From a virus, in IMG/VR virus record IMGVR_UViG_3300027631_000096, positions 1 through 29,444 of that record: a stretch of DNA of 29,444 nt. One strand, written 5' to 3'. The translations under genes and the position numbers were made by a program. This document shows positions 2,123-28,616 of this stretch, one piece after another (the stretch's first letter is position 1; each line of letters starts with the position of its first letter). The notes under the pieces are model-generated. The model made no database searches and was not told where the DNA came from. It saw only the letters and a list, made by a program, of their open reading frames with translations.

Positions 2123-2453
2123 ATAATCTACTTTTTATTGTTATACAATTATCGTTGTCTTTCCAGTGTTTTAATACTTTAATAAAATATTCGTAACTAA
2201 TTCCCAATTCATCAGCTGTTGTTTTTTTATTCTGATTAGGAAACATTAAATGATATTCTATTATTTTTAACTTTCTTGATTCAGTAGGAAAAAATCTTGT
2301 TGGTTTATGTCCTATTAACACTTCAATTTTATTATTGTAGTAGTGCGTATTACCAACTTTCTTTTTTGATTCTATATTATATCTTTTTAATCTTCTATAT
2401 AAAATTTCAATAGGAATGTCACGCTTTTTACTAATTTCTTTTATAGTTATCAT
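2121..2453 (-). CDS. Helix-turn-helix DNA-binding protein (110 aa)
   Basis: Residues 1-30 (MITIKEISKKRDIPIEILYR then RLKRYNI) look like a MerR/excisionase-type winged helix-turn-helix, in which ITIKEISKKR forms the first helix and PIEILYRRLKR the recognition helix. A second such segment lies at about residues 78-95 (TTADELGISYEYFIKVLKHW). Strongly basic. It is a candidate early regulator and might bind one of the repeated operator-like motifs at 3.8-6.4 kb, but nothing here shows which. It overlaps its neighbours at both ends (ATGA with the exonuclease, TAATG with paralogue B). Confidence 0.65.
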   Translation of the reverse strand: MITIKEISKKRDIPIEILYRRLKRYNIESKKKVGNTHYYNNKIEVLIGHKPTRFFPTESRKLKIIEYHLMFPNQNKKTTADELGISYEYFIKVLKHWKDNDNCITIKSRL

Positions 2454-3100
2454 TTCTGCAATTTGCTATTTATCTTCTCAATATACGCTTCTTTGATAGC
2501 TATCGCTTCTTCAAGTCTTTCTTTAATAAGACTAATCATTTCCTCATCTCTTTTTACTTCAATTGTGTGATGAAATTCCTCGCCATCAATGATGCAGTAG
2601 TTAAAGAAATATGCCTTGTCAGAATTACTACATAACATTTGCATCTGCATCTGAGCATAGTATTCCTTATCAATATTCTCGTCAGCTACAATCTTAAAGA
2701 ACTTAGTCGCTCTTGGACACTTAATTTCAAGTATCGCATCTTTTCCTACAACGCCATCGGGTGACGCTCCTGCGTGTTGTCCATAAGGAAACATAAATGA
2801 TTCAGTTGCTTCAGGGTGCATCTCTTGGAATTTAGCAAATGCTAATGGCTCTAATTCAACTCCACGTTGCATATCAGCACCACGATAACTATCTTCGACT
2901 TGACCGTATAACTGCTCGATTGCTTTCTCAATCGCATAAGTTTTTCCAGTTTCTCCTAATCCACGAACTCCTAAAAGTTTGTGAATTTCTGATGCGGTAA
3001 ATTTACCATATCTATCTTTGAACCATTCGTCACTTCTTTGCTCGTATGGTCTATTATTAATAGTTTCTAATTGTTCGATTGCTTGATGTCTATTGCTCAT
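2450..3100 (-). CDS. YqaJ-like viral recombinase / lambda-type exonuclease
   Basis: A 216-aa 5'-3' exonuclease of the PD-(D/E)XK fold, which resects double-strand ends for phage recombination. Numbering is from ATG 3100. The N-terminal block QRSDEWFKDRYGKFTASEIH (21-40) is the family signature. GVELEPLAF (80-88) supplies the first conserved Glu. SPDGVVG (113-119) followed by LEIKCP (124-129) gives the catalytic D...ExK (Asp115, Glu125, Lys127). YYAQMQMQM (147-155) gives the family Gln. An upstream ATG (3142) exists, but its extension lies over a separate frame (3090-3266), so 3100 is preferred. No annealing-protein partner is recognisable in the window. Confidence 0.93.
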   Translation of the reverse strand: MSNRHQAIEQLETINNRPYEQRSDEWFKDRYGKFTASEIHKLLGVRGLGETGKTYAIEKAIEQLYGQVEDSYRGADMQRGVELEPLAFAKFQEMHPEATESFMFPYGQHAGASPDGVVGKDAILEIKCPRATKFFKIVADENIDKEYYAQMQMQMLCSNSDKAYFFNYCIIDGEEFHHTIEVKRDEEMISLIKERLEEAIAIKEAYIEKINSKLQK

Positions 3101-3266
3101 TTTTTTTTGTTTTTGGTTTCCATAATCCAATGGAGTTAACACTTCGATTCACTTGGTATAATGGGTCTGTATATATAAAATTTACAATCTCATTTAATCC
3201 TTTGTAATTATTTACAAGAACATAAGTTCCATTCCCATAATTATTTATTGTATATCCTTCTTTCAT
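3090..3266 (-). CDS. Small hypothetical early protein (58 aa)
   Basis: ATG 3266 makes an ATGA overlap with the stop of the gene before it, and the frame ends at TAG 3090, overlapping the exonuclease start by 11 bp. The product begins MKEGYTINNYGNGTYVLVNN and ends in a lysine-rich tail (KPKTKKNEQ). A beta-hairpin-like N-terminus is suggested. The family is not recognised. The tight packing argues that it is genuine, and its presence supports the shorter exonuclease start. Confidence 0.55.
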   Translation of the reverse strand: MKEGYTINNYGNGTYVLVNNYKGLNEIVNFIYTDPLYQVNRSVNSIGLWKPKTKKNEQ

Positions 3267-3370
3267 TTCTTAATTCTTTCGTAAGCGTTACACATTTGTT
3301 CGTTGTCGTGGTAGTGAATGGATTGTACTGTTTTTCTCATCCATTTGTCAAATCTTTTTATTTCTTTCAT
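3263..3370 (-). CDS. 35-aa early peptide
   Basis: ATG 3370 shares a base with the stop of the upstream gene (TAATG), and TGA 3263-3265 overlaps the next ATG (ATGA). The peptide is basic, aromatic and helical (begins MKEIKRFDKWMRKTVQ). No family is recognised. The support is the perfect operon junctions at both ends. Confidence 0.5.
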   Translation of the reverse strand: MKEIKRFDKWMRKTVQSIHYHDNEQMCNAYERIKK

Positions 3371-3558
3371 TATAAATATTGTGCTAATATTAATTGTTTA
3401 TCTAACTGCTGCTCATCTGATAACGAACCAAAGGTAATAAAATTTGCTTCAATTTTAGCTAATTCTTTTAAATGATTTGTAGCAATGTCCAATCTTCTTT
3501 GTTGGTGTTTCATTATTAACTCCAATGATTCTATTTGTTGTAGGATTACTTCTTCCAT
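3370..3558 (-). CDS. Small coiled-coil early protein (62 aa)
   Basis: Strongly heptad-like from residue 3 to 40 (VILQQIESLELIMKHQQRRL...). A short TFGSLSDEQQLDKQL motif follows, resembling TFGNISNDLEIEL in the gene before it, so the two may be distant paralogues. Function unknown; such proteins often oligomerise or act as adaptors. It begins on a TAATG junction with the first gene of the operon. Confidence 0.6.
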   Translation of the reverse strand: MEEVILQQIESLELIMKHQQRRLDIATNHLKELAKIEANFITFGSLSDEQQLDKQLILAQYL

Positions 3559-3791
3559 TATAATATAGTTATTTCTTCTATTAATCTTATCTTTAATCTT
3601 GCTAATTCAATCTCCAGATCATTACTAATGTTTCCAAAAGTAGTTCGTTCTTGTTCAATAACATTAATCCTTCTGTTAATCCTTTCAATTGTACCACAAA
3701 TACCATTAATATCTTCGATAAGACCATCAAGTACTTCGTCATTGTAAGAGTTACTTACATACTCCAATAATTTTTCAAGTGCCGTTTGCAT
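3558..3791 (-). CDS. First gene of the leftward early operon; coiled-coil protein (about 77 aa)
   Basis: The frame can be opened at GTG 3815, ATG 3797 or ATG 3791. ATG 3791 is preferred: it lies 13 nt after the AAACTT of the repeated leader, and in the two other leader copies the first ATG lies 14 nt after that motif. GTG 3815 sits inside the conserved leader, where the other copies do not read in frame. The product (MQTALEKLLEYVSNSYNDEV...) is helical, with heptads over about residues 30-75. Function unknown. Expression should follow the promoter at 3841-3871. Confidence 0.6.
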   Translation of the reverse strand: MQTALEKLLEYVSNSYNDEVLDGLIEDINGICGTIERINRRINVIEQERTTFGNISNDLEIELARLKIRLIEEITIL

Positions 3792-3801
3792 AAGCATATA
3801 T

Positions 3802-3844
3802 TTAAAGTTTGCCACAAATTTGCTTCCTTAACTTCGAGTACAAA
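3802..3844 (-). repeat. Repeated early leader, copy 1
   Basis: 43 bp matching 5641-5683 with a single mismatch, and more loosely 6375-6412 on the other strand. It runs from the TTTG of the -7 box to the translation start region and carries AAGTT...AACTT ends that can pair. See the finding on the shared leader. Confidence 0.85.
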
Positions 3845-3871
3845 TCTATATAAGTTATATTAATCCACAAA
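3841..3871 (-). promoter_or_regulatory. Bacteroidetes-type promoter of the leftward early operon
   Basis: On the minus strand, TTTG (3868-3871) and TAGATTTG (3841-3848) are separated by 19 nt. This fits the Bacteroidetes consensus TTTG-(about 19)-TAnnTTTG. It is the best complete promoter in the window. The start of transcription should fall near 3835, giving a short leader made of the repeated element. Confidence 0.75.
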
Positions 3872-3950
3872 ATAATTTAGATAACTTTAACACAAAAGTG
3901 CTGTTTTGTAGGAAAAAAGTATTGAAAAGTGCCATATTTCAATTTTTATA

Positions 3951-4103
3951 AAAAAAAAGTGCGTTTTTATACCCCCCCCCTAAACGAAATACCAAAATAG
4001 GGGGGGGGGTCTATTTCCCATATTTTTATAAAAAAAACTAATTAATTAATATATATATAAAAAGAGTATTATTGTATTAATTAATTTAGTATCTTTGTAG
4101 CAA
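3951..4103 (+). repeat. Poly-C/poly-G hairpin promoter repeat, copy A
   Basis: It matches 9042-9193. The left 34 bp (3951-3984) are identical to 9042-9075 and include C9 at 3972-3980. A different 19-nt loop follows, then G10 at 4000-4009 with TCTATTTCC after it. The AT-rich segment is diverged, and a conserved promoter box with GTAGCAA follows. The arms form a stem of about 12 bp (A-C9-TA with TA-G9-T). It lies between divergent transcription units. Confidence 0.85.
4090..4097 (+). promoter_or_regulatory. -7 box TATCTTTG for the rightward early unit
   Basis: A TAnnTTTG match 20 bp before ATG 4117, in the same context as the terminase promoter (9180-9187): TTAATTT(A/T)GTA(A/T)CTTTGTAGCAA. No good -33 TTTG lies at the expected distance. 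Confidence 0.6.
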
Positions 4104-4116
4104 CTAATATATTATT

Positions 4117-4416
4117 ATGATTGTTTACTTTTATTTAAAAACAAAACCATTTAAAGAAGAAGAAGGATTAGTATATATCAATGGACACATATTGCATTAC
4201 GATGTTTATGGAAATGAATATGAAACCGATAGCGTAATCACAATGGACACTGACTTCTATTTGGATTTATTATTATTAAAATGTAAGCATAAGAAATATT
4301 CTTTTCTTAATATGTCCAAAGAAATGTTTGTTAAATCAAATCCCATATATATCAACAATGGAAAGATATGTGGTTCAGATAAAAATGGAGAAATTAAACT
4401 ATTAGAAGAAATATGA
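4117..4416 (+). CDS. Hypothetical protein (99 aa)
   Basis: The family is not recognised. It is beta-rich and tyrosine-rich (begins MIVYFYLKTKPFKEEEGLVY) with no catalytic motif visible. It is the first gene of a two- or three-gene rightward unit that starts from the hairpin-repeat promoter. Its stop overlaps the next ATG (ATGA at 4413-4416), so it is probably translated together with the MazG-like protein. Confidence 0.6.
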   Translation: MIVYFYLKTKPFKEEEGLVYINGHILHYDVYGNEYETDSVITMDTDFYLDLLLLKCKHKKYSFLNMSKEMFVKSNPIYINNGKICGSDKNGEIKLLEEI

Positions 4417-4787
4417 GTATAAGTCACACTGGAATGGTATTCTTTGGAACTGAAGCAAAACCATATAGAGAAGAAGTAATTAAAGATACGATTGTAGAAA
4501 GCGTTGTAAATCGATTTAAAGAGCGTTCTGAAGTAGGAATTGCTAAATATGGTACTACGATGGATAGAAAAGATTTGAGTACCTTAGAATGGATGATTCA
4601 CTTCCGAGAAGAATTGATGGATGGATTATTATATTTAGAGCGTGTAATAAAAGACACACAAAAAGAAAATATAATTGATATAATGAAGTCTGATGAAGAA
4701 TTAGGATTGTATGCAAATACTCTTAGTGGAACAACATCATCAACCACAAATAATTCATATAGTGTAGTTGAATGTAAATGTAAATAA
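4413..4787 (+). CDS. MazG-like (all-alpha NTP pyrophosphohydrolase type) phage protein
   Basis: Residues about 32-84 read FKERSEVGIAKYGTTMDRKD, then EWMIHFREELMDGLLYLERV. They match a widespread phage protein type with the pattern RF.ERS..G..KYGTT..R.DLS...W..H..EELMD...Y. The E..EE..D helix resembles the metal-binding helix of MazG/dUTPase-like all-alpha NTP pyrophosphatases, so it may clean or bias nucleotide pools. The last 25 residues are a Ser/Thr/Asn-rich tail ending CKCK. Whether it is an active hydrolase cannot be judged, because the second acidic helix is not obvious. Confidence 0.6.
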   Translation: MSISHTGMVFFGTEAKPYREEVIKDTIVESVVNRFKERSEVGIAKYGTTMDRKDLSTLEWMIHFREELMDGLLYLERVIKDTQKENIIDIMKSDEELGLYANTLSGTTSSTTNNSYSVVECKCK

Positions 4788-7721: not shown

Positions 7722-8513
7722 ATGTGCATAGCAATATTGAATACTAAAGGAAAATTGAGCAAAGAAACGATAAAAAACAGTTTTGACAACAACGAAATGG
7801 GTGCAGGGCTTTTATGGAACGCAAACGGAAAATTAAACACTTTTAAAACCTACAAATTTAACGCATTACTTCAGAAGTACAACGAATTGAGAAACAATAC
7901 AAAAACGGGTAAAATCGTTTTGCATTTTAGAATTGCTACAAGTGGCATAAATGGCAAGGAAAATTTGCACCCTTTTAATGTAAATGATAATTTAGGATTC
8001 GTACATAACGGGGTTATATCGGGACTCGGAAACGTAAAGCACTCGGATACATACCAATTTAACGAGATACTAAAAGACTTCAAACACGATTTTATTAACT
8101 GCAAAACCTCAAATTTATTTATTGCTAACTATATTGGCAGTGGCTCAAAATTGGTATTTTTAGACAATAACGGAAACCACACACTTATAAACGAGTCAAA
8201 AGGTCATTGGGATAAATCAAAACAAAATTGGTTTTCAAACGATAGTTATAAAGCCTACAATGATTATAAATGGTACGGAAGTACGAAAATATACAACACC
8301 GTTAAAAAGTATAATTATAAAATCGATACATTTTCAGAGGAAGAAAGTTATTGGGATACATTTTCGGAATGTTGCAGTTATTATAATATTGACGAAATGA
8401 ATATCAATTCAGATATGGAAATAGAATACTATTGCGAGTTAAATAATTGTGCGGATGTATACGAACTATTGCAACATTTGAAATTAAATAAATCCCTACA
8501 TTATGCAAAATAA
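7722..8513 (+). CDS. Class II (Ntn-type) glutamine amidotransferase
   Basis: 263 aa. It begins MCIAILNTKG, so removal of Met exposes Cys2 as the catalytic nucleophile. Other class II signatures are EMGAGLLW (25-32), HFRIATSG (68-75), NLHPF (81-85), the oxyanion-hole motif FVHNGVI (93-99) and SDTYQF (108-113). The expected activity is hydrolysis of glutamine to release ammonia, probably handed to the amidoligase next door, or a related amide hydrolysis. The last 100 residues (tyrosine- and asparagine-rich) are not part of the known core. The gene follows the amidoligase by 5 bp and overlaps a membrane micropeptide at its 3' end. Confidence 0.85.
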   Translation: MCIAILNTKGKLSKETIKNSFDNNEMGAGLLWNANGKLNTFKTYKFNALLQKYNELRNNTKTGKIVLHFRIATSGINGKENLHPFNVNDNLGFVHNGVISGLGNVKHSDTYQFNEILKDFKHDFINCKTSNLFIANYIGSGSKLVFLDNNGNHTLINESKGHWDKSKQNWFSNDSYKAYNDYKWYGSTKIYNTVKKYNYKIDTFSEEESYWDTFSECCSYYNIDEMNINSDMEIEYYCELNNCADVYELLQHLKLNKSLHYAK

Positions 8514-9211: not shown

Positions 9212-9652
9212 ATGGAAAGAGATAAAGTGTTTTTGGATATAATCCAAGAAATAGAATTGGGGCGTTCACTTAAAAACATATTAGATAACGAATCTTCCCT
9301 GATTGATAGAAGTACTTTTTACCGCTGGTTAAACGATAATCCCGAAAGAATAGAATTATATAAGAGAGCTACTGAAATAAGAGCTGATAATATCTTTGAT
9401 GATATGTTGGAACTTGCTGATGATGGTAGTAAAGACTATTACTATGATGTTAATGGAAACAGACAACAAAGTATGGTAGCTGTAAATAGGTCAAGGTTGC
9501 AACTTGATACTCGTAAATGGGTATTGGGAAGAATGAACCCTAAAAAGTACAGCGAGAAGCTGGATATTACTTCAGGAGGTGATAAATTGAAAGTAGTTCC
9601 GATTATAGGAATGCAGATTATTAACCAAGAGGAAGAAAAAATTGCAGAATAA
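9212..9652 (+). CDS. terS: Terminase small subunit
   Basis: 146 aa, the DNA-recognition subunit of the packaging motor. The N-terminus holds a helix-turn-helix (SLKNILDNESSLIDRSTFYR, about 19-38). The middle reads RADNIFDDMLELADD, and the C-terminal part has the typical RSRLQLDTRKWVLGRMNPKK block with YSEKLDI after it. This is a well-known small-terminase pattern of Gram-negative phages. It lies directly upstream of and overlapping the large subunit. The preceding non-coding DNA is where its binding site should lie. Confidence 0.88.
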   Translation: MERDKVFLDIIQEIELGRSLKNILDNESSLIDRSTFYRWLNDNPERIELYKRATEIRADNIFDDMLELADDGSKDYYYDVNGNRQQSMVAVNRSRLQLDTRKWVLGRMNPKKYSEKLDITSGGDKLKVVPIIGMQIINQEEEKIAE

Positions 9653-11000
9653 AAGTCTATCATTAAATGTTAGAGGTAATTTAAAGCAATTAGAAGCTAT
9701 AAAGGCTTGGACTGATAAAACTACCATTGATATTGTTTATGGAGGTTCAAAAGGAAGTGGAAAGACTTTCATAGGTTGTTCTTTGATATGTGCAGATGCA
9801 CTAATGTACCCTGAAACGCATTATTTTATTGCGAGAAAGACATTAGCAGATTTACGTAAGTTTACTATTCCTTCTATTCAAGAGGTTTTAAGTGGATGGG
9901 GAATAACGGAGGATTATTATAGCTTCAATGGTCAAGATAACTATTTCAAGTTTCATAATAAGTCTAAGATATTTTTGATTGATGCGAAGTATTTGCCTTC
10001 AGACCCGAACTATATGCGATTTGGAGGTATGCAGAATACTCGTGGATGGATAGAAGAAGCTGGGGAGTTTGACATTGAGTGTAAGAATAACTTACAAGCA
10101 TCTATTGGCAGATGGAAGAATACAGAATATGATTTAACTCCAAAGTTATTGCAGACTTGTAATCCGAGTAAGAATTACTTGTACAAGGATTATTATAAGG
10201 CTACAATTGATGGAACTATTCCTAATCACATGAAGTTCATTCAAGCATTGCCAACAGATAATAAGACATTGCCAGTTGATTACGTTCCTAACTTAATGAA
10301 AATATTAAGCCATAACGAGGTTCAAAGGCTTGTGTATGGTAATTGGGAGTTTGATGATAACCCTTATGCGATGTTTGAGTATTCAGATATTCTTGGATTG
10401 TACACCAATGAGTTTATAAAGCCTACTCAAGACAGGTATATGACTTGTGATATTGCGTATACAGGTTCGGATAAGTTTGTTATTGTGATCTGGGCAGGAT
10501 TTGTAGCATTAAAGATAATTGCCATTGATAAGATTGACGATACGATGGTGAGCAAGAAGATAAATGAGTTAAGAATAGAGAATAGAGTGCCTTTGAAAAA
10601 TGTGATATATGATGCTGATGGATTGCAGACATTTACAAGGGCATCAACAAAGTTAGGAAATTTAGTAGGAGCAACTCCATTTAACAATAATGGGAAGCCA
10701 ATAAAGATGCACGGTAAAACGGAGAACTTTAGAAATTTAAAAACTCAATGTTACTGGTACTTTGCAGAAGCTGTTAAAGACTCTAAAATATTTATTCAAG
10801 AGGATAAGTATAGAAAGCAAATAATTGAGGAATTAGAGCAGATAAATAGACTTCCATTTCAAGATGATGGAAAAATAGCGTTAGAAAAGAAAGAGGAAAT
10901 AAAGAAAAGAATAGGTCGCTCACCTGATTTTGCCGACTCTCTAATGCTCCGATTTTTCTTTGAATTGAAAGGTAAGCCGAGATTACGAATAATTTGGTAA
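9642..11000 (+). CDS. terL: Terminase large subunit (ATPase-nuclease)
   Basis: 452 aa packaging motor. Walker A GGSKGSGKT (34-42), Walker B with catalytic Glu in GWIEEAGEF (135-143), coupling motif LLQTCNPSKN (169-178). The RNase H-like nuclease acids are Asp270 (TCDIAYTGSD), Asp324 (IYDADG) and the Asp pair in SPDFADSLMLRF (427-438). The start appears to be TTG 9642, since no in-frame ATG occurs before the Walker A region. It overlaps terS by 11 bp and is probably coupled to it. The domain order and length are normal for the family. Confidence 0.95.
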   Translation: MQNKSLSLNVRGNLKQLEAIKAWTDKTTIDIVYGGSKGSGKTFIGCSLICADALMYPETHYFIARKTLADLRKFTIPSIQEVLSGWGITEDYYSFNGQDNYFKFHNKSKIFLIDAKYLPSDPNYMRFGGMQNTRGWIEEAGEFDIECKNNLQASIGRWKNTEYDLTPKLLQTCNPSKNYLYKDYYKATIDGTIPNHMKFIQALPTDNKTLPVDYVPNLMKILSHNEVQRLVYGNWEFDDNPYAMFEYSDILGLYTNEFIKPTQDRYMTCDIAYTGSDKFVIVIWAGFVALKIIAIDKIDDTMVSKKINELRIENRVPLKNVIYDADGLQTFTRASTKLGNLVGATPFNNNGKPIKMHGKTENFRNLKTQCYWYFAEAVKDSKIFIQEDKYRKQIIEELEQINRLPFQDDGKIALEKKEEIKKRIGRSPDFADSLMLRFFFELKGKPRLRIIW

Positions 11001-11010
11001 ATAAATAACT

Positions 11011-12651
11011 ATGATATTTAAAAACAACGAAGAAGCCATATCGGCTATTAAGAGTAATCTTAAAATCAATGAAGAATTTGTCGAAATGCGTGAATGTTCT
11101 GATGAACTAAAAGCGTTAGTAAATGGAGATGATTTCATAGAAGAACTTATAGAGAATATAGAAGGAATTGAAAGTAATGTAAAAGCAGAAGCAAGGAGAA
11201 AATACTCAAGAAGCATCAAAGACTTATTCGGAAGAATATTTCAGCCTATCGATAATATATATTACGCAACTGGAGGAATTAAAGACTACGATATTTTAAA
11301 CCCTACGATTAAAGCAGAGTTCTTAAATAAAATTGCAAGTGTTAGAGATGGGAAGTCTTTAACTGAATGGGTACAAGACTACGCAATTAAATTAATGAAC
11401 ACAGACCCAAATGGATTGATGTTCTTAGAATATACTACTGAACCCGAAGTAGATATTTACCCAACTTACAAATCTATTGATAGTATTCGTTATTACGAGT
11501 CAAAAGGACAAATGGTCGAGTATGTAATATTTGAACCAAAGAGATTAGAAAACAGACAGTTTTGGAGAGTAGTAGATGATTTGACAGATAGAACATTTGA
11601 GCAAGTTGGAAATGAATTTAATCTTGTTGCTGAATTAACATTTGAGCATCCATTTGGTCAAGTACCTGCACTTATATGTTCTAACATACAGATACCAGCT
11701 GAGGAGGAGAGATTATCAGCTATTGATAACATTATAGACATCTCCAAAGAATATGCGAGAGACCAATCATTCTTAACATTATATAAAATTTACAAAGCCA
11801 ATCCAATCTTTTGGAAGTACGTTCAGTATTGTGGTGATTGTGGTGGAACAGGAAAAGTAGAGGAGGAAACTTGTAGTACTTGTGATGGTCACGGTAAAAT
11901 GATGGGTAAGAGCGATGTAACAGGAGTTGTTGAATTGCCTATTCCTGACGATAGAGATACTCCAGTTATTGCACCAAACATTGCAGGATTTATATCACCT
12001 GATTTAGATGTGTGGAAACAATATTCAGAAGAATTGAATTTACTTGAGGAGAAAATGTATAAAACGCATTGGGGAACAAGTTATGGTATTCAGAATGTAA
12101 GCAATGTAGAAAAAACTGCTACTGAAATAATATATAACAAACAACCATTAGAGAATCAACTTAATAAGTATGCCGACTTTATAGAATATGTTGAGTGGAA
12201 ATTCTGTGAATGGATATTGAACTTTTATGATTTAGGAAAAAGCAGAAGCGAAAGCAGGATAACAATCAATTTAGGTCGTAGATATATCGTTGAAGGTTAT
12301 GACACATTATTGGAAAGATATGAGATGTCTGTTAAGGCTGAAGAAAATAGTGTGGTACTGGATAAGCTGTTTAGTGAGTATTTATCGGCAAAATATAGAA
12401 ATAATCCAATTGATTTGCAAATTAATCTAATAAAAATGCGAATCGAACCATATTTACACTTACCTTTACAAACAGTTTTAAGTATCTTTGGAAACGAAGA
12501 AGCACAAAGAAAAGTATTATATCAAAAATGGTGGCAGACAGTTACAGATTATAGCAAGTCAGAAGAAGTATTGACTGCTAAATTTAATAGCTGGTTTGAA
12601 TTAAATAAAAAGGTTGTAGCACTACCAGTTGCACCAATAACTAAAATTTAA
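11011..12651 (+). CDS. Portal protein with embedded zinc-knuckle motif
   Basis: 546 aa. It is assigned as portal from its position directly after terL, its size, and the alpha/beta organisation with DRTFEQVGNEFNL-like and PFGQVPALICSN segments common in Bacteroidetes phage portals. It would form the dodecameric ring for DNA entry and tail joining. Unusually it carries two CxxCxGxG-type pairs, Cys274/Cys277 and Cys288/Cys291 (CGDCGGTGK and CSTCDGHGK). These are the spacing and residues of a DnaJ zinc centre and most likely bind one zinc ion. The insert lies about mid-protein, before the segment VVELPIPDDRDTPVIAPN. Confidence 0.85.
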   Translation: MIFKNNEEAISAIKSNLKINEEFVEMRECSDELKALVNGDDFIEELIENIEGIESNVKAEARRKYSRSIKDLFGRIFQPIDNIYYATGGIKDYDILNPTIKAEFLNKIASVRDGKSLTEWVQDYAIKLMNTDPNGLMFLEYTTEPEVDIYPTYKSIDSIRYYESKGQMVEYVIFEPKRLENRQFWRVVDDLTDRTFEQVGNEFNLVAELTFEHPFGQVPALICSNIQIPAEEERLSAIDNIIDISKEYARDQSFLTLYKIYKANPIFWKYVQYCGDCGGTGKVEEETCSTCDGHGKMMGKSDVTGVVELPIPDDRDTPVIAPNIAGFISPDLDVWKQYSEELNLLEEKMYKTHWGTSYGIQNVSNVEKTATEIIYNKQPLENQLNKYADFIEYVEWKFCEWILNFYDLGKSRSESRITINLGRRYIVEGYDTLLERYEMSVKAEENSVVLDKLFSEYLSAKYRNNPIDLQINLIKMRIEPYLHLPLQTVLSIFGNEEAQRKVLYQKWWQTVTDYSKSEEVLTAKFNSWFELNKKVVALPVAPITKI

Positions 12652-14291: not shown

Positions 14292-15329
14292 ATGGCAGGT
14301 AAATCCGCATCAAATCTCGTATCCGCACAGGCAAAATTGCTTGGTGCGTTTCAATCATCTGAGTTACGTTATACGTATCCAGCAACTTATTTAGCTTTAA
14401 AAGCTATGTCACCAGTTATGTTCCCTAATTATCTTGATTTAAAAACAAGAGAAGATAGAGCAGTAGTAGCTAATTATGTTACAAGAGCATCAAGGTCAAG
14501 TTTACAAAATGCAAGAACACACAATCACGCTGGAAATCCACAAGGTTCAGCTACTTTAACTCCAAGTTGGCTTACTTATTCTGATAAGTTTGCTATGTCT
14601 TTGAAACAAGCAGATACTAACTTGTATAGTCTTGATGAACAATTGTTTCAAGAAATTTCAAATGCAATTGCTAACTTAATGGAAGCATACGAAGTACTTG
14701 CTGTAAATGCAATATTTGATACAAGAACAACAACTGGAACTACATCAACAGCAGAAGCTACATTTAATGCTACATATAGTGCTTTTACAATTACAAGCGC
14801 TAATATTAATAGAGCAATGCAAATTACTAAAGTAGCTATGGCTGCGAATAAATATCCTAATGGATATACTGTTTTTTGTGATTCAACTTCTTATGCTCTT
14901 TTTGAGTATCAAGCTGCACAAGGAATTTCTAATTCAACTAATTTGTCATTCCAATTCAATGGAGTAACATTTGTTCATTGTATTTCTTTAGGAGCTAAAG
15001 CAACTACTTTATTAACAACAACCACTAAAGGATTTTGGATTGTAGTTCCTAATGGAACAGCAGCAGTATTGCCTTGGATTCCAAAACAAAATAGAATTGG
15101 CGTTGATACCCCAGTTGCAAACTATTCTAATATTATAAATCCTATTGATGGAGAAGCCTATGCAGTACATACGTATATGACTGCCGCTGGAGCAACAGGT
15201 ATGAGTTCAGTTGATTTGAACGGATATTCACAAGATGTTGTAACTCAGTACGAACTTTCTCAAGATATAGTTTTTGCTTTTGCACCTCAAACAAGTGGTT
15301 CAGCAGTATTAGCTTTCTATATATCATAA
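14292..15329 (+). CDS. Major capsid protein
   Basis: 345 aa. Assigned from position (after scaffold candidate, before connector and tail genes), its own promoter, high Ala/Thr/Ser/Asn content, and segments typical of coat proteins of Bacteroidetes phages: MFPNYLDLKTREDRAVVANY near the N-terminus, TLTPSWLTYSDKFAMSLKQ, and a C-terminal strand run ending ALAFYIS-like (VLAFYIS). No processing site is evident. The fold is probably HK97-like, by inference only. Confidence 0.8.
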   Translation: MAGKSASNLVSAQAKLLGAFQSSELRYTYPATYLALKAMSPVMFPNYLDLKTREDRAVVANYVTRASRSSLQNARTHNHAGNPQGSATLTPSWLTYSDKFAMSLKQADTNLYSLDEQLFQEISNAIANLMEAYEVLAVNAIFDTRTTTGTTSTAEATFNATYSAFTITSANINRAMQITKVAMAANKYPNGYTVFCDSTSYALFEYQAAQGISNSTNLSFQFNGVTFVHCISLGAKATTLLTTTTKGFWIVVPNGTAAVLPWIPKQNRIGVDTPVANYSNIINPIDGEAYAVHTYMTAAGATGMSSVDLNGYSQDVVTQYELSQDIVFAFAPQTSGSAVLAFYIS

Positions 15330-15335
15330 TAATAG

Positions 15336-16409
15336 ATGATAAACATCACTAAAATACAAACAGCGTTATCGGGAATTGTAGGGTTTAAACAGCCTTACAA
15401 TCCTGATTATGCTATTGTAGATTCAATAAATCAAGCAAGTTCTTCAGGGTATTATATAACGGATAATCCGTATGCTAAAATAGAATACATAAAGGACAAT
15501 CAAGATTACGTTGATATATCTACAACAGATTTCAATTCATTACTAACTGACATTAAAAAATCAGCAGTATCAAGTGTTTGTAATCAAGTATTTAGCGATT
15601 ACGATTTCATTGACAGAACATTATTGTTCAAAAACGCTTCTAATAAAGCATCAGTTGAAACATTACCAACAGGATTTGTCGGTTATCATATTAGAGTAAC
15701 AAGTCAAAAAAATGTGGCTTTTAAAATAAGTCGTGTGTTACTCGATTTTCAAGGTACTGGTACATTTACCTTACTACTTTGGAATACTGCAAAGAAAGCA
15801 GCGATACAATCTAAGGTAATAACAATAACAACAGACCACCAAGAAGTAACTTTGGATTGGGTTGTAGATAATACAGATACAACTTATAAAGGAGAATACT
15901 ATATTGGTTATATTTCAAATTCACTTACAGTAATACCGTATAAAAGAGATTGGAACGCAGGTAATATTTTATCTTCTCCAACTTATTTAGATGTTTACAA
16001 AGTAAAAGTAACTAATCACTTAACTACTACATTATTTGACTTAACTAAAGTTGAAGGTATGTCAGAAGATATAGGATTAAACTTAGACATAACTGTATAT
16101 GAAGATTATACTGATTTCATTATAAACAACAAATCACTTTTTGCAAGAGCAATTCAAGTTGATGGTATCATTAGTTGTATTCAATTATATTTATCATCAT
16201 TAAGAAGTAACTCAAACCAATCGCAATCAGCTCAGTTATATGAGAAATTAATGATTGAATTAAAAGGTACAGGTAGCGAAAGCATTGTTAAAGTAATAGG
16301 TTTAGAAAATCAGTTATTAGGAGAGATTGCTTCGATAAGAACAGAAATAGGTAAATTAAAGAAAGGTTTAGTTAAATCTAATCAAATCTTTGCTTATACT
16401 TTAAGATAA
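15336..16409 (+). CDS. Virion structural protein, probable neck/connector or minor head protein
   Basis: 357 aa. Residues about 1-110 are mixed; about 115-215 form a beta-sandwich-like stretch (VGYHIRVTSQKNVAFKISRV, FTLLLWNTAKKAA, VTLDWVVDN, GEYYIGYIS) resembling a jelly-roll or carbohydrate-binding-like module. The C-terminal 70 residues are helical with heptads (GLENQLLGEIASIRTEIGKL). The family is not recognised. It lies 6 bp after the capsid gene and shares a TAATG junction with the next gene, so it is almost certainly a structural gene. Confidence 0.55.
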   Translation: MINITKIQTALSGIVGFKQPYNPDYAIVDSINQASSSGYYITDNPYAKIEYIKDNQDYVDISTTDFNSLLTDIKKSAVSSVCNQVFSDYDFIDRTLLFKNASNKASVETLPTGFVGYHIRVTSQKNVAFKISRVLLDFQGTGTFTLLLWNTAKKAAIQSKVITITTDHQEVTLDWVVDNTDTTYKGEYYIGYISNSLTVIPYKRDWNAGNILSSPTYLDVYKVKVTNHLTTTLFDLTKVEGMSEDIGLNLDITVYEDYTDFIINNKSLFARAIQVDGIISCIQLYLSSLRSNSNQSQSAQLYEKLMIELKGTGSESIVKVIGLENQLLGEIASIRTEIGKLKKGLVKSNQIFAYTLR

Positions 16410-16927
16410 TGGCAAACTTCACAAAAGACAATCCAATTGGATTAGATCTGGTAGTAGATAAAGTACAAAAGAAATTGTACGATAAATTGACTACATTATG
16501 GAATGTAAAGTTAGATGGTTATCCAAGATGTTATGAGATAAAAAGAGATAAGAAAACTACTCTTGAACATTATAAAGGTAGAAATGAATACGTATCTTTG
16601 ATACATAGTGATAGAAATAAATTTTTCTTTACTTGTAAAAAAGATATAACTCAAAATAGCTTTACTACCTATGATGCAGAAATAGAAGTATATTTCATAG
16701 TAAATGTAAAAGATTGTAAGCCATCGATACAGCATAGAGCTGATGAGGAAGTTAGAATGGATGTTCTTAATATATTATCTCTAATAGGATATGTAGAACC
16801 AACAAAAGTTATAACAACTGATATTACCTCAGTATTTAGTGGATATGATTTTAAACTTGTAGATGATATTCATCCGAACCATTGTTTCAAGATTGCATTT
16901 AAAGTTAATGATTTTAAATTAAAGTAG
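16409..16927 (+). CDS. Probable tail completion / tail terminator protein
   Basis: 172 aa, alpha/beta (helix VDKVQKKLYDKLTTLW at 17-32, strands FFFTCKK and AEIEVYFIVNVKD, helix EEVRMDVLNILSLIGYV, final strand HCFKIAFKVNDFKLK). This arrangement and the size resemble tail-terminator and neck proteins, and it lies two genes before the tail tube. No diagnostic motif is present, so this is a call from order and shape. Confidence 0.5.
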   Translation: MANFTKDNPIGLDLVVDKVQKKLYDKLTTLWNVKLDGYPRCYEIKRDKKTTLEHYKGRNEYVSLIHSDRNKFFFTCKKDITQNSFTTYDAEIEVYFIVNVKDCKPSIQHRADEEVRMDVLNILSLIGYVEPTKVITTDITSVFSGYDFKLVDDIHPNHCFKIAFKVNDFKLK

Positions 16928-27938: not shown

Positions 27939-28616
27939 ATGATTGTTTATAGAGCTACTAATAAAATTAACGGTAAATGTTATATTGGATATACTACTAA
28001 ATCTATTGATGAAAGAATAAAAGAGCATATATATAGATCAAAAAGTAAAAACGACAAGTCTTATTTTTATTTATTTAAAAAATCTTTAAGAAAATATGGA
28101 ATTGATAGTTTTAAATGGGATGTATTAGAAAATTGCGAATCTAAGCAGGATTGTTGTTTAAAAGAAATATATTATATAAAAAAATATAACACAATATCTC
28201 CAAATGGTTATAATTTAACAGAAGGAGGCAATGGAGGAGTACAATCAGAACAAACTAAATTAAAAATATCAAATACTGTAAAAGAATATTGGAAAAATAA
28301 TAAAAATTCTCATCATTGGAAAAATAGCAGTTCTGAAGATAGAAGCGAATGGGCTAAAAAAAGTTGGTTAATTAAAAAAGAAAACGGATATATAAAACCT
28401 TCTTATTTTCATAGCGAAGAATCAAAACTTAAAATTAGTATTACAAAAAACAATAAGAATAGAATAAAATGGTTTAATAATTTAACTAATGAAGTATTAG
28501 AATTATCAATAACCGAAATGGCAAATAAAACAAAACTAAGTGTTGGAACTTTTAGCCATCTATATAAAAAAAGAACTAAAATCACTAAATGTGGTTGGAG
28601 ATTATTTGAACAATAA
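27939..28616 (+). CDS. Free-standing GIY-YIG homing endonuclease
   Basis: 225 aa. N-terminal GIY-YIG nuclease: MIVYRATNKINGKCYIGYTT, with the expected Tyr pair, Arg27 and KEH in DERIKEHIYR, and later LKEIYYIKKYNT plus GYNLTEGGNGG (the usual metal Glu side). Residues about 103-125 (SEQTKLKISNTVKEYWKN) and 148-160 (SEESKLKISITKNN) are NUMOD3-type DNA-binding repeats. The C-terminus (LELSITEMANKTKLSVGTFS) is a NUMOD1-like helix-turn-helix. Its expected action is to cut a homologous phage lacking it so that the gene spreads. No intron edges are visible, so it is free-standing between two tail genes. Confidence 0.9.
   Translation: MIVYRATNKINGKCYIGYTTKSIDERIKEHIYRSKSKNDKSYFYLFKKSLRKYGIDSFKWDVLENCESKQDCCLKEIYYIKKYNTISPNGYNLTEGGNGGVQSEQTKLKISNTVKEYWKNNKNSHHWKNSSSEDRSEWAKKSWLIKKENGYIKPSYFHSEESKLKISITKNNKNRIKWFNNLTNEVLELSITEMANKTKLSVGTFSHLYKKRTKITKCGWRLFEQ

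Follow-up and report, generated by a model that had tools for sequence, protein, structure and literature searches.

The stretch of DNA analysed here (the window) has 29,444 bases and is the entire virus record, yet it is probably a fragment of the genome. The genes around the feature of interest are:

9212..9652, plus strand, terminase small subunit (PF20901, E 1e-26; PHROG 1482, E 3.6e-30)
9642..11000, plus strand, terminase large subunit (PHROG 2, E 4.9e-30; PF03237, E 6.2e-08)
11011..12651, plus strand, portal protein gene, 546 amino acids (PHROG 7376 match and portal fold)
14292..15329, plus strand, virion structural protein (PHROG 7231 'virion structural protein', E 1.5e-17)

Judged from its sequence and modelled fold, the open reading frame at 11011-12651 encodes a portal protein. 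The PHROG 7376 'portal protein' profile matches residues 44-509 at E 5e-38, which places the protein in this family. The best fold matches of its model are 8xb5_A (Z 19.6), SPP1 gp6 7z4w_A (18.6) and crAss001 7qoi_FE (18.4), and the 50 matches listed (Z 15.5-19.6) carry titles of portal, portal-tail, neck or tail complexes and cover model residues 4-426. The Foldseek/VIA-align matches of the portal model include entries of crAss001, T7, P22, lambda and T4.

The gene order runs from the terminase small and large subunits over the portal to the PHROG 7231 virion structural gene, followed by a tail protein and a tape measure protein. Due to the tail and tape measure genes behind the portal, the genome resembles that of a long-tailed phage. 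The terminase large subunit should be the motor expected to dock on the portal clip, and the product of 14292..15329 is probably the major capsid protein by analogy with phage Pan5, in which the gene at a comparable position is annotated so. The proteins encoded at 15336-16409 and 16409-16927 are candidates for neck proteins. Close downstream of the tail genes, a homing endonuclease gene is present at 27939-28616 (PHROG 314, 5.2e-32; the GIY-YIG family is also matched). Upstream of the terminase genes, 7722-8513 shows weak matches to glutamine amidotransferase families (E about 0.001-0.002), the top match of this protein being a PHROG without assigned function. A RecE-like exonuclease (PHROG 149, 8.4e-34) is encoded on the minus strand at 2450-3142, indicating that the gene block left of the packaging genes is oppositely oriented.

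The portal contains cysteines at residues 29, 223, 274, 277, 288, 291 and 399, the middle four of which are arranged in two pairs:

11830..11853, plus strand, first knuckle, C274-xx-C277-x-G-x-G281 (CGDCGGTG), cysteines invariant in alignment A3 of 45 sequences
11830-11832, plus strand, codon of Cys274
11839-11841, plus strand, codon of Cys277
11872..11895, plus strand, second knuckle, C288-xx-C291-x-G-x-G295 (CSTCDGHG), cysteines likewise invariant in A3
11872-11874, plus strand, codon of Cys288
11881-11883, plus strand, codon of Cys291

These cysteines are accompanied by Gly279, 281, 293 and 295. A reading made from the sequence alone had described Cys274, 277, 288 and 291 as two CxxCxGxG pairs inside a portal, and the sequence, the PHROG 7376 match and the fold bear this out; its range of 11829-11895 does contain the site but starts one base early, the true nucleotides being 11830-11895. 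In 200,000 shuffles of the portal protein, the spacing CxxC-(3-30)-CxxC arose by chance 33 times, and not once with a GxG after each pair. A scan of all open stretches of at least 60 codons in six frames yielded three places in the window with a CxxC and two further Cys or His residues, and the double CxxCxGxG is found only at the portal site.

The conservation of the four cysteines was assessed in 305 sources (304 loci and the window), which gave 196 proteins after removal of contained sequences, a step that deals with the many loci representing one contig taken twice. The site is spanned by 195 of them, L222 stopping short of it. The scan patterns feeding this count were short and lacked the four cysteines, while the tblastn and profile searches used whole sequences, so that the cysteines contribute a little. 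All four cysteines are present in 193 of the 195 proteins, none in two, and no protein has one to three. Poor conservation in close homologues, which the sequence-only reading had named as the observation that would count against it, can therefore be rejected.

The same picture is seen in the individual sets. Among the closest viral contigs, the four cysteines are present in 34/34 and the full double CxxCxGxG in 33/34. Alignment A3, whose 45 sequences share 25-93% identity with the window portal, has 24 invariant columns including the four cysteines; alignment A6 omits L220, the coordinates of which included a stop codon. All 18 phage-collection records examined, drawn from 44 and 81 matched records, carry the set, although one of them (MT835637) is an unverified faecal scaffold. 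They include the phages Bacteroides B40-8, Parabacteroides PDS1, Croceibacter P2559Y and P2559S, Elizabethkingia TCUEAP2, Flavobacterium tant8-1, Fpv8 and 1/32, Polaribacter P12002L, a Rhodobacteraceae phage and cyanophage Pan5. In the Bacteroides-type branch, the set is complete at 79 of 80 loci. A prophage survey found a PHROG 7376 match in 3 of 395 Bacteroidota genomes (one of the three being the search centre), and two of these portals have the four cysteines while one (L304) has not, numbers too small for host statistics.

Some observations concern the records themselves. Bacteroides-type portals occur in assemblies labelled Propionibacterium, Clostridia and Alphaproteobacteria (L202, L206 and L208, with matches near 3001-4722), and these contigs were perhaps binned under the wrong organism. 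The 47,869-base record IMGVR_UViG_3300020045_008030 carries two different Bacteroides-type portal genes near its opposite ends (L170, 2001-3716; L191, 2001-3707) and is either a chimera or a pair of adjacent phages. In the records of AS73P1, P2559S and BKO1-3 (L039, L214 and L215), the annotated portal start lies later than the homology extends. Finally, a fifth cysteine within the first pair, such as in CDFHNDECEC, is present in some Bacteroides-type portals (L320, L321, L325, L329 and also L204).

Two relatives lack the cysteines. In L197, a single metagenome contig, the four positions are occupied by aspartate, aspartate, alanine and lysine; the remaining portal is intact with 564 residues and no stop, and both the other cysteines of the family (222 and 421 in its own numbering) and the loop length are retained. 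L304, obtained from the search of Bacteroidota genomes, has a loop without any cysteine. Since both still possess a loop at this position, the proposal from the sequence that the motif is an insert is not supported. A frameshift behind either sequence was rejected, because the motif does not reappear in either of the other frames. That L197 belongs to a cysteine-less lineage was rejected as well: 18 of 20 loci from an L197-based scan have all four cysteines, one of the remaining two (L312) is the same contig as L197 and the other (L330) ends before the site; these loci were read by eye, several lie on contigs already counted, and the 20 lie outside the count of 196. For L304, a search of viral contigs returned four pattern-matching stretches and no true relatives.

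When the knuckle columns were left out of the tree, two separate changes of the knuckle state were counted on it, the second of which is less securely placed since the branch leading to L304 is very long (3.1 changes per column), which also makes the alignment of its loop uncertain. If the sites were lost independently, the probability of striking the same proteins would be about 1e-11 by a rough estimate that takes no account of kinship. This all-or-none pattern is the strongest evidence that the four cysteines act as one ligand set. It also bears on the idea that they form two disulphide bonds in place of a metal site, for which four conserved cysteines near each other, as well as the possible oxidation of cysteines in the virion, could be put forward. 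Two disulphides need not disappear together, yet proteins with two cysteines number 0 of 195; furthermore, CxxC pairs with glycines have the geometry of metal sites and match DnaJ and anti-TRAP in a profile search of the PDB. Phage assembly moreover occurs in the reducing cytoplasm. Taken together, disulphide bonds appear very improbable.

The two relatives make clear that the site is not strictly required for a portal. In L197 the loss occurred without a frameshift and with the other cysteines and the loop length kept, which suggests that the portal fold can probably survive without the metal and points to a stabilising role.

The location of the motif was derived from single-chain AlphaFold2 models of the window portal (m6a145bcc66e2, mean pLDDT 84.5) and of L136 from the Bacteroides-type branch (82.2). 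For the window portal, the following elements are predicted:

11725..11799, plus strand, predicted outer stem helix, residues 239-263 (AlphaFold2 and DSSP; named by analogy with known portals)
11800..12003, plus strand, predicted clip between the stem helices, residues 264-331 (the L136 model is arranged alike)
12004..12072, plus strand, predicted inner stem helix, residues 332-354
12073..12117, plus strand, predicted tunnel loop region of low confidence, residues 355-369 (pLDDT under 50 at 361-372)
12118..12228, plus strand, predicted long wing helix behind the tunnel loop, residues 370-406 (crAss001 order)

Both models share the order of stem helix, four-cysteine loop, inner stem helix, low-confidence tunnel loop and long wing helix, the cysteines of L136 being residues 286, 297, 320 and 323. 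In portals, the loop joining the two stem helices is the clip, and in the predicted structures of both portals the knuckle sits in it, in agreement with the clip placement suggested earlier. For the crAss001 portal, the available text of PMC10172136 likewise gives the order inner stem helix, tunnel loop and long wing helix. The ten-residue blocks of the window knuckle reach confidences of 80, 82 and 72 compared to 53-68 for the rest of the clip. Residues 291-320 of L136 reach 83-86 compared to 41-67 elsewhere in its clip, and the blocks containing its first and last cysteine are at 67 and 62. Thus, most of the knuckle appears in both models as an island of better confidence within a poorly predicted, moderate-confidence clip.

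How strongly the individual residues are held was analysed on the same tree, comprising 86 of the 196 proteins (below 75% identity, at least 350 residues). The cysteine columns show 1-2 changes against a median of 28 (506 columns; tree of 66 changes per column), with the caveat that the aligner places the columns in variable-length loops and tends to stack cysteines. The columns beside the cysteines within the pairs show 32-43 changes, and across the knuckle, leaving aside the cysteines and the glycines that follow the first pair, the columns show 21-53. At each of the four cysteines, TGC and TGT are used about 50:50, indicating that third positions are free to mutate and that the residue is held. 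The spacing ranges over C-x(2-10)-C-x(10-27)-C-x2-C, in which the second pair is always separated by 2; the commonest sets among 193 proteins are 10-22-2 (83/193) and 2-10-2 (77/193). Variable spacing with constant cysteines is what would be expected of a ligand set, not of a linear surface motif.

Here, the possibility has to be considered that the knuckle serves chiefly as a tooth on which a partner docks, such as the large terminase, an adaptor or a scaffold, with the metal only shaping it. The predicted clip position fits this idea, since the clip of HK97 binds the large terminase and later the adaptor according to the available part of PMC10359639, and both terminase genes lie directly upstream of the portal gene. 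Beside the knuckle, Pro265 (85/86), Tyr270 (72/86) and Pro312 (79/86) are conserved among the representatives, as are the glycines after the first pair, which shows that the clip, taken as a whole, is constrained and makes a conserved contact adjoining the knuckle possible. Within the knuckle, however, the residues other than the cysteines and turn glycines are free to change, which counts against a single conserved docking surface, even though a co-evolving surface would still fit; the two relatives without the cysteines also speak against it. A docking tooth is therefore conceivable but rather unlikely.

A contact of the knuckle with DNA during packing or ejection, the knuckle then lining the channel, could likewise be imagined, as the clip forms the channel mouth and lysine rings at clip level are described in tailed phages in the accessible text of PMC12886913. 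The three columns just after the second pair carry Lys or Arg in 41-51% of the 86 representatives, but no basic residue is retained in more than about half of them, so that this role seems improbable.

We consider it likely that the four cysteines are a structural metal site, most probably for zinc, which staples the clip loop. Each portal subunit would hold one metal ion, and a ring would contain twelve sites by analogy with other portals. The metal would fold the glycine-rich clip loop into a compact, rigid knuckle between the stem helices, standing in for a hydrophobic core in this small loop. In this way the loop could keep its shape under the pull of the five-subunit packaging motor, and later while the adaptor replaces the motor. 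The partner traffic at the clip, as described for HK97 in the part of PMC10359639 available, favours some mechanical role. Of the functions proposed from the sequence, stabilising the clip is hence better supported than holding the terminase or another protein.

As to the nature of the metal, an iron site, either rubredoxin-like or an iron-sulphur cluster and perhaps sensing the redox state, might be proposed because the Bacteroides-phage branch has CPxCG-type pairs, which also occur in rubredoxins, and because a tail-tip protein of lambda has an iron-sulphur cluster. The window-type pairs, in contrast, resemble those of DnaJ and anti-TRAP, and no feature of the portal analysis points to redox chemistry; iron hence has little probability. 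A further extension of the metal staple would be a metal-dependent portal, in which the occupancy or geometry of twelve clip sites times the release of the motor and the binding of the adaptor, and the metal supply of the host tunes head completion. This is an unlikely scenario.

The clip is the place where portals swap partners, from the motor to the neck, and its flexibility has been proposed to absorb the symmetry mismatch with the five-subunit motor (PMC10359639, available part). A metal staple, if true, would offer a simple handle on the required stiffness of the clip, because the residues to alter, four cysteines, are known. The four are retained in phages whose recorded hosts are Bacteroides, Parabacteroides, Alistipes, Flavobacterium, Polaribacter, Croceibacter and Elizabethkingia, and also in a Rhodobacteraceae phage and a cyanophage. 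For building structures of such portals or purifying them, a putative cofactor should be allowed for.

Compared to known portals, the closest counterparts are the sequence relatives of PHROG 7376, among them those of Bacteroides B40-8, Parabacteroides PDS1 and PDB 9wwa, which have four cysteines at the same place. In the Bacteroides branch the first pair is C-x10-C, the gap is about 22 and the second GxG is absent, in contrast to CxxC-x10-CxxC of the window portal. PDB 9wwa is a solved Bacteroides-type portal of 575 residues with four cysteines in its sequence; it is absent among the matches listed in the fold searches (structure library to 8 April 2026), and no paper was found under '9WWA'. 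If its authors modelled zinc, what is new here is reduced to how widely the cysteines are conserved and to their loss as a complete set.

The classical portals of HK97, T7, lambda, crAss001, P22, phi29 and T4 share the fold of the window portal but lack any CxxC. They contain 2 to 7 cysteines each, and a CxxC or four cysteines within 60 residues are found in 0/7. The earlier statement that zinc is foreign to the classical portal fold is in line with these seven, although other metal-bearing portals may exist beyond them. No report of a zinc site in a phage portal was found in the titles and abstract beginnings of the matches listed, most subscription papers lying outside the search; a prior report may thus be in print, and absence from the literature is not proved. 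Within the available text, PMC12494034 mentions zinc a single time, in connection with tail fibres and the THP protein, and PMC11445458 describes a baseplate protein with a putative metal site of cysteines; 'zinc' and 'cysteine' are absent from the main text of PMC10172136 on crAss001, as far as it was available.

Outside the portals, the central domain of DnaJ (PF00684) and anti-TRAP have CxxCxGxG pairs like those of the window portal. Both proteins bind zinc, and the DnaJ central domain has four such modules holding two zinc ions, whereas the window portal has two modules. When the window-type profile was compared with PDB sequences, the knuckle stretch matched DnaJ at E 0.0015 and anti-TRAP at E 0.014; penicillin acylases, although unrelated, reach E 0.019 at another stretch. 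Membership in the DnaJ domain family is rejected, as only two of the four modules are present, covering profile positions 34-65 of 65 with 23.1 bits against a cut-off of 32.7. The 'DnaJ zinc-centre pattern' of the sequence-only reading consequently holds for the CxxCxGxG pairs and not for kinship, given the two modules, the score below the cut-off and the second GxG missing in the Bacteroides branch.

Within the neck, the nearest likeness is the stopper gp97 of Staphylococcus phage 812, a ring protein with a four-cysteine zinc loop that moves as a rigid body (PMC12886913, available part). It differs in being a stopper rather than a portal and in its motif, Cys-Pro-Cys-(X)n-CxxC. The same text describes this tetra-cysteine loop as conserved in Herelleviridae and present in no other phage group, and the window protein, a portal with the first pair CGDC, does not belong to it. 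Zinc sites of this kind do occur in neck rings, as the phage 812 stopper demonstrates (PMC12886913, available part).
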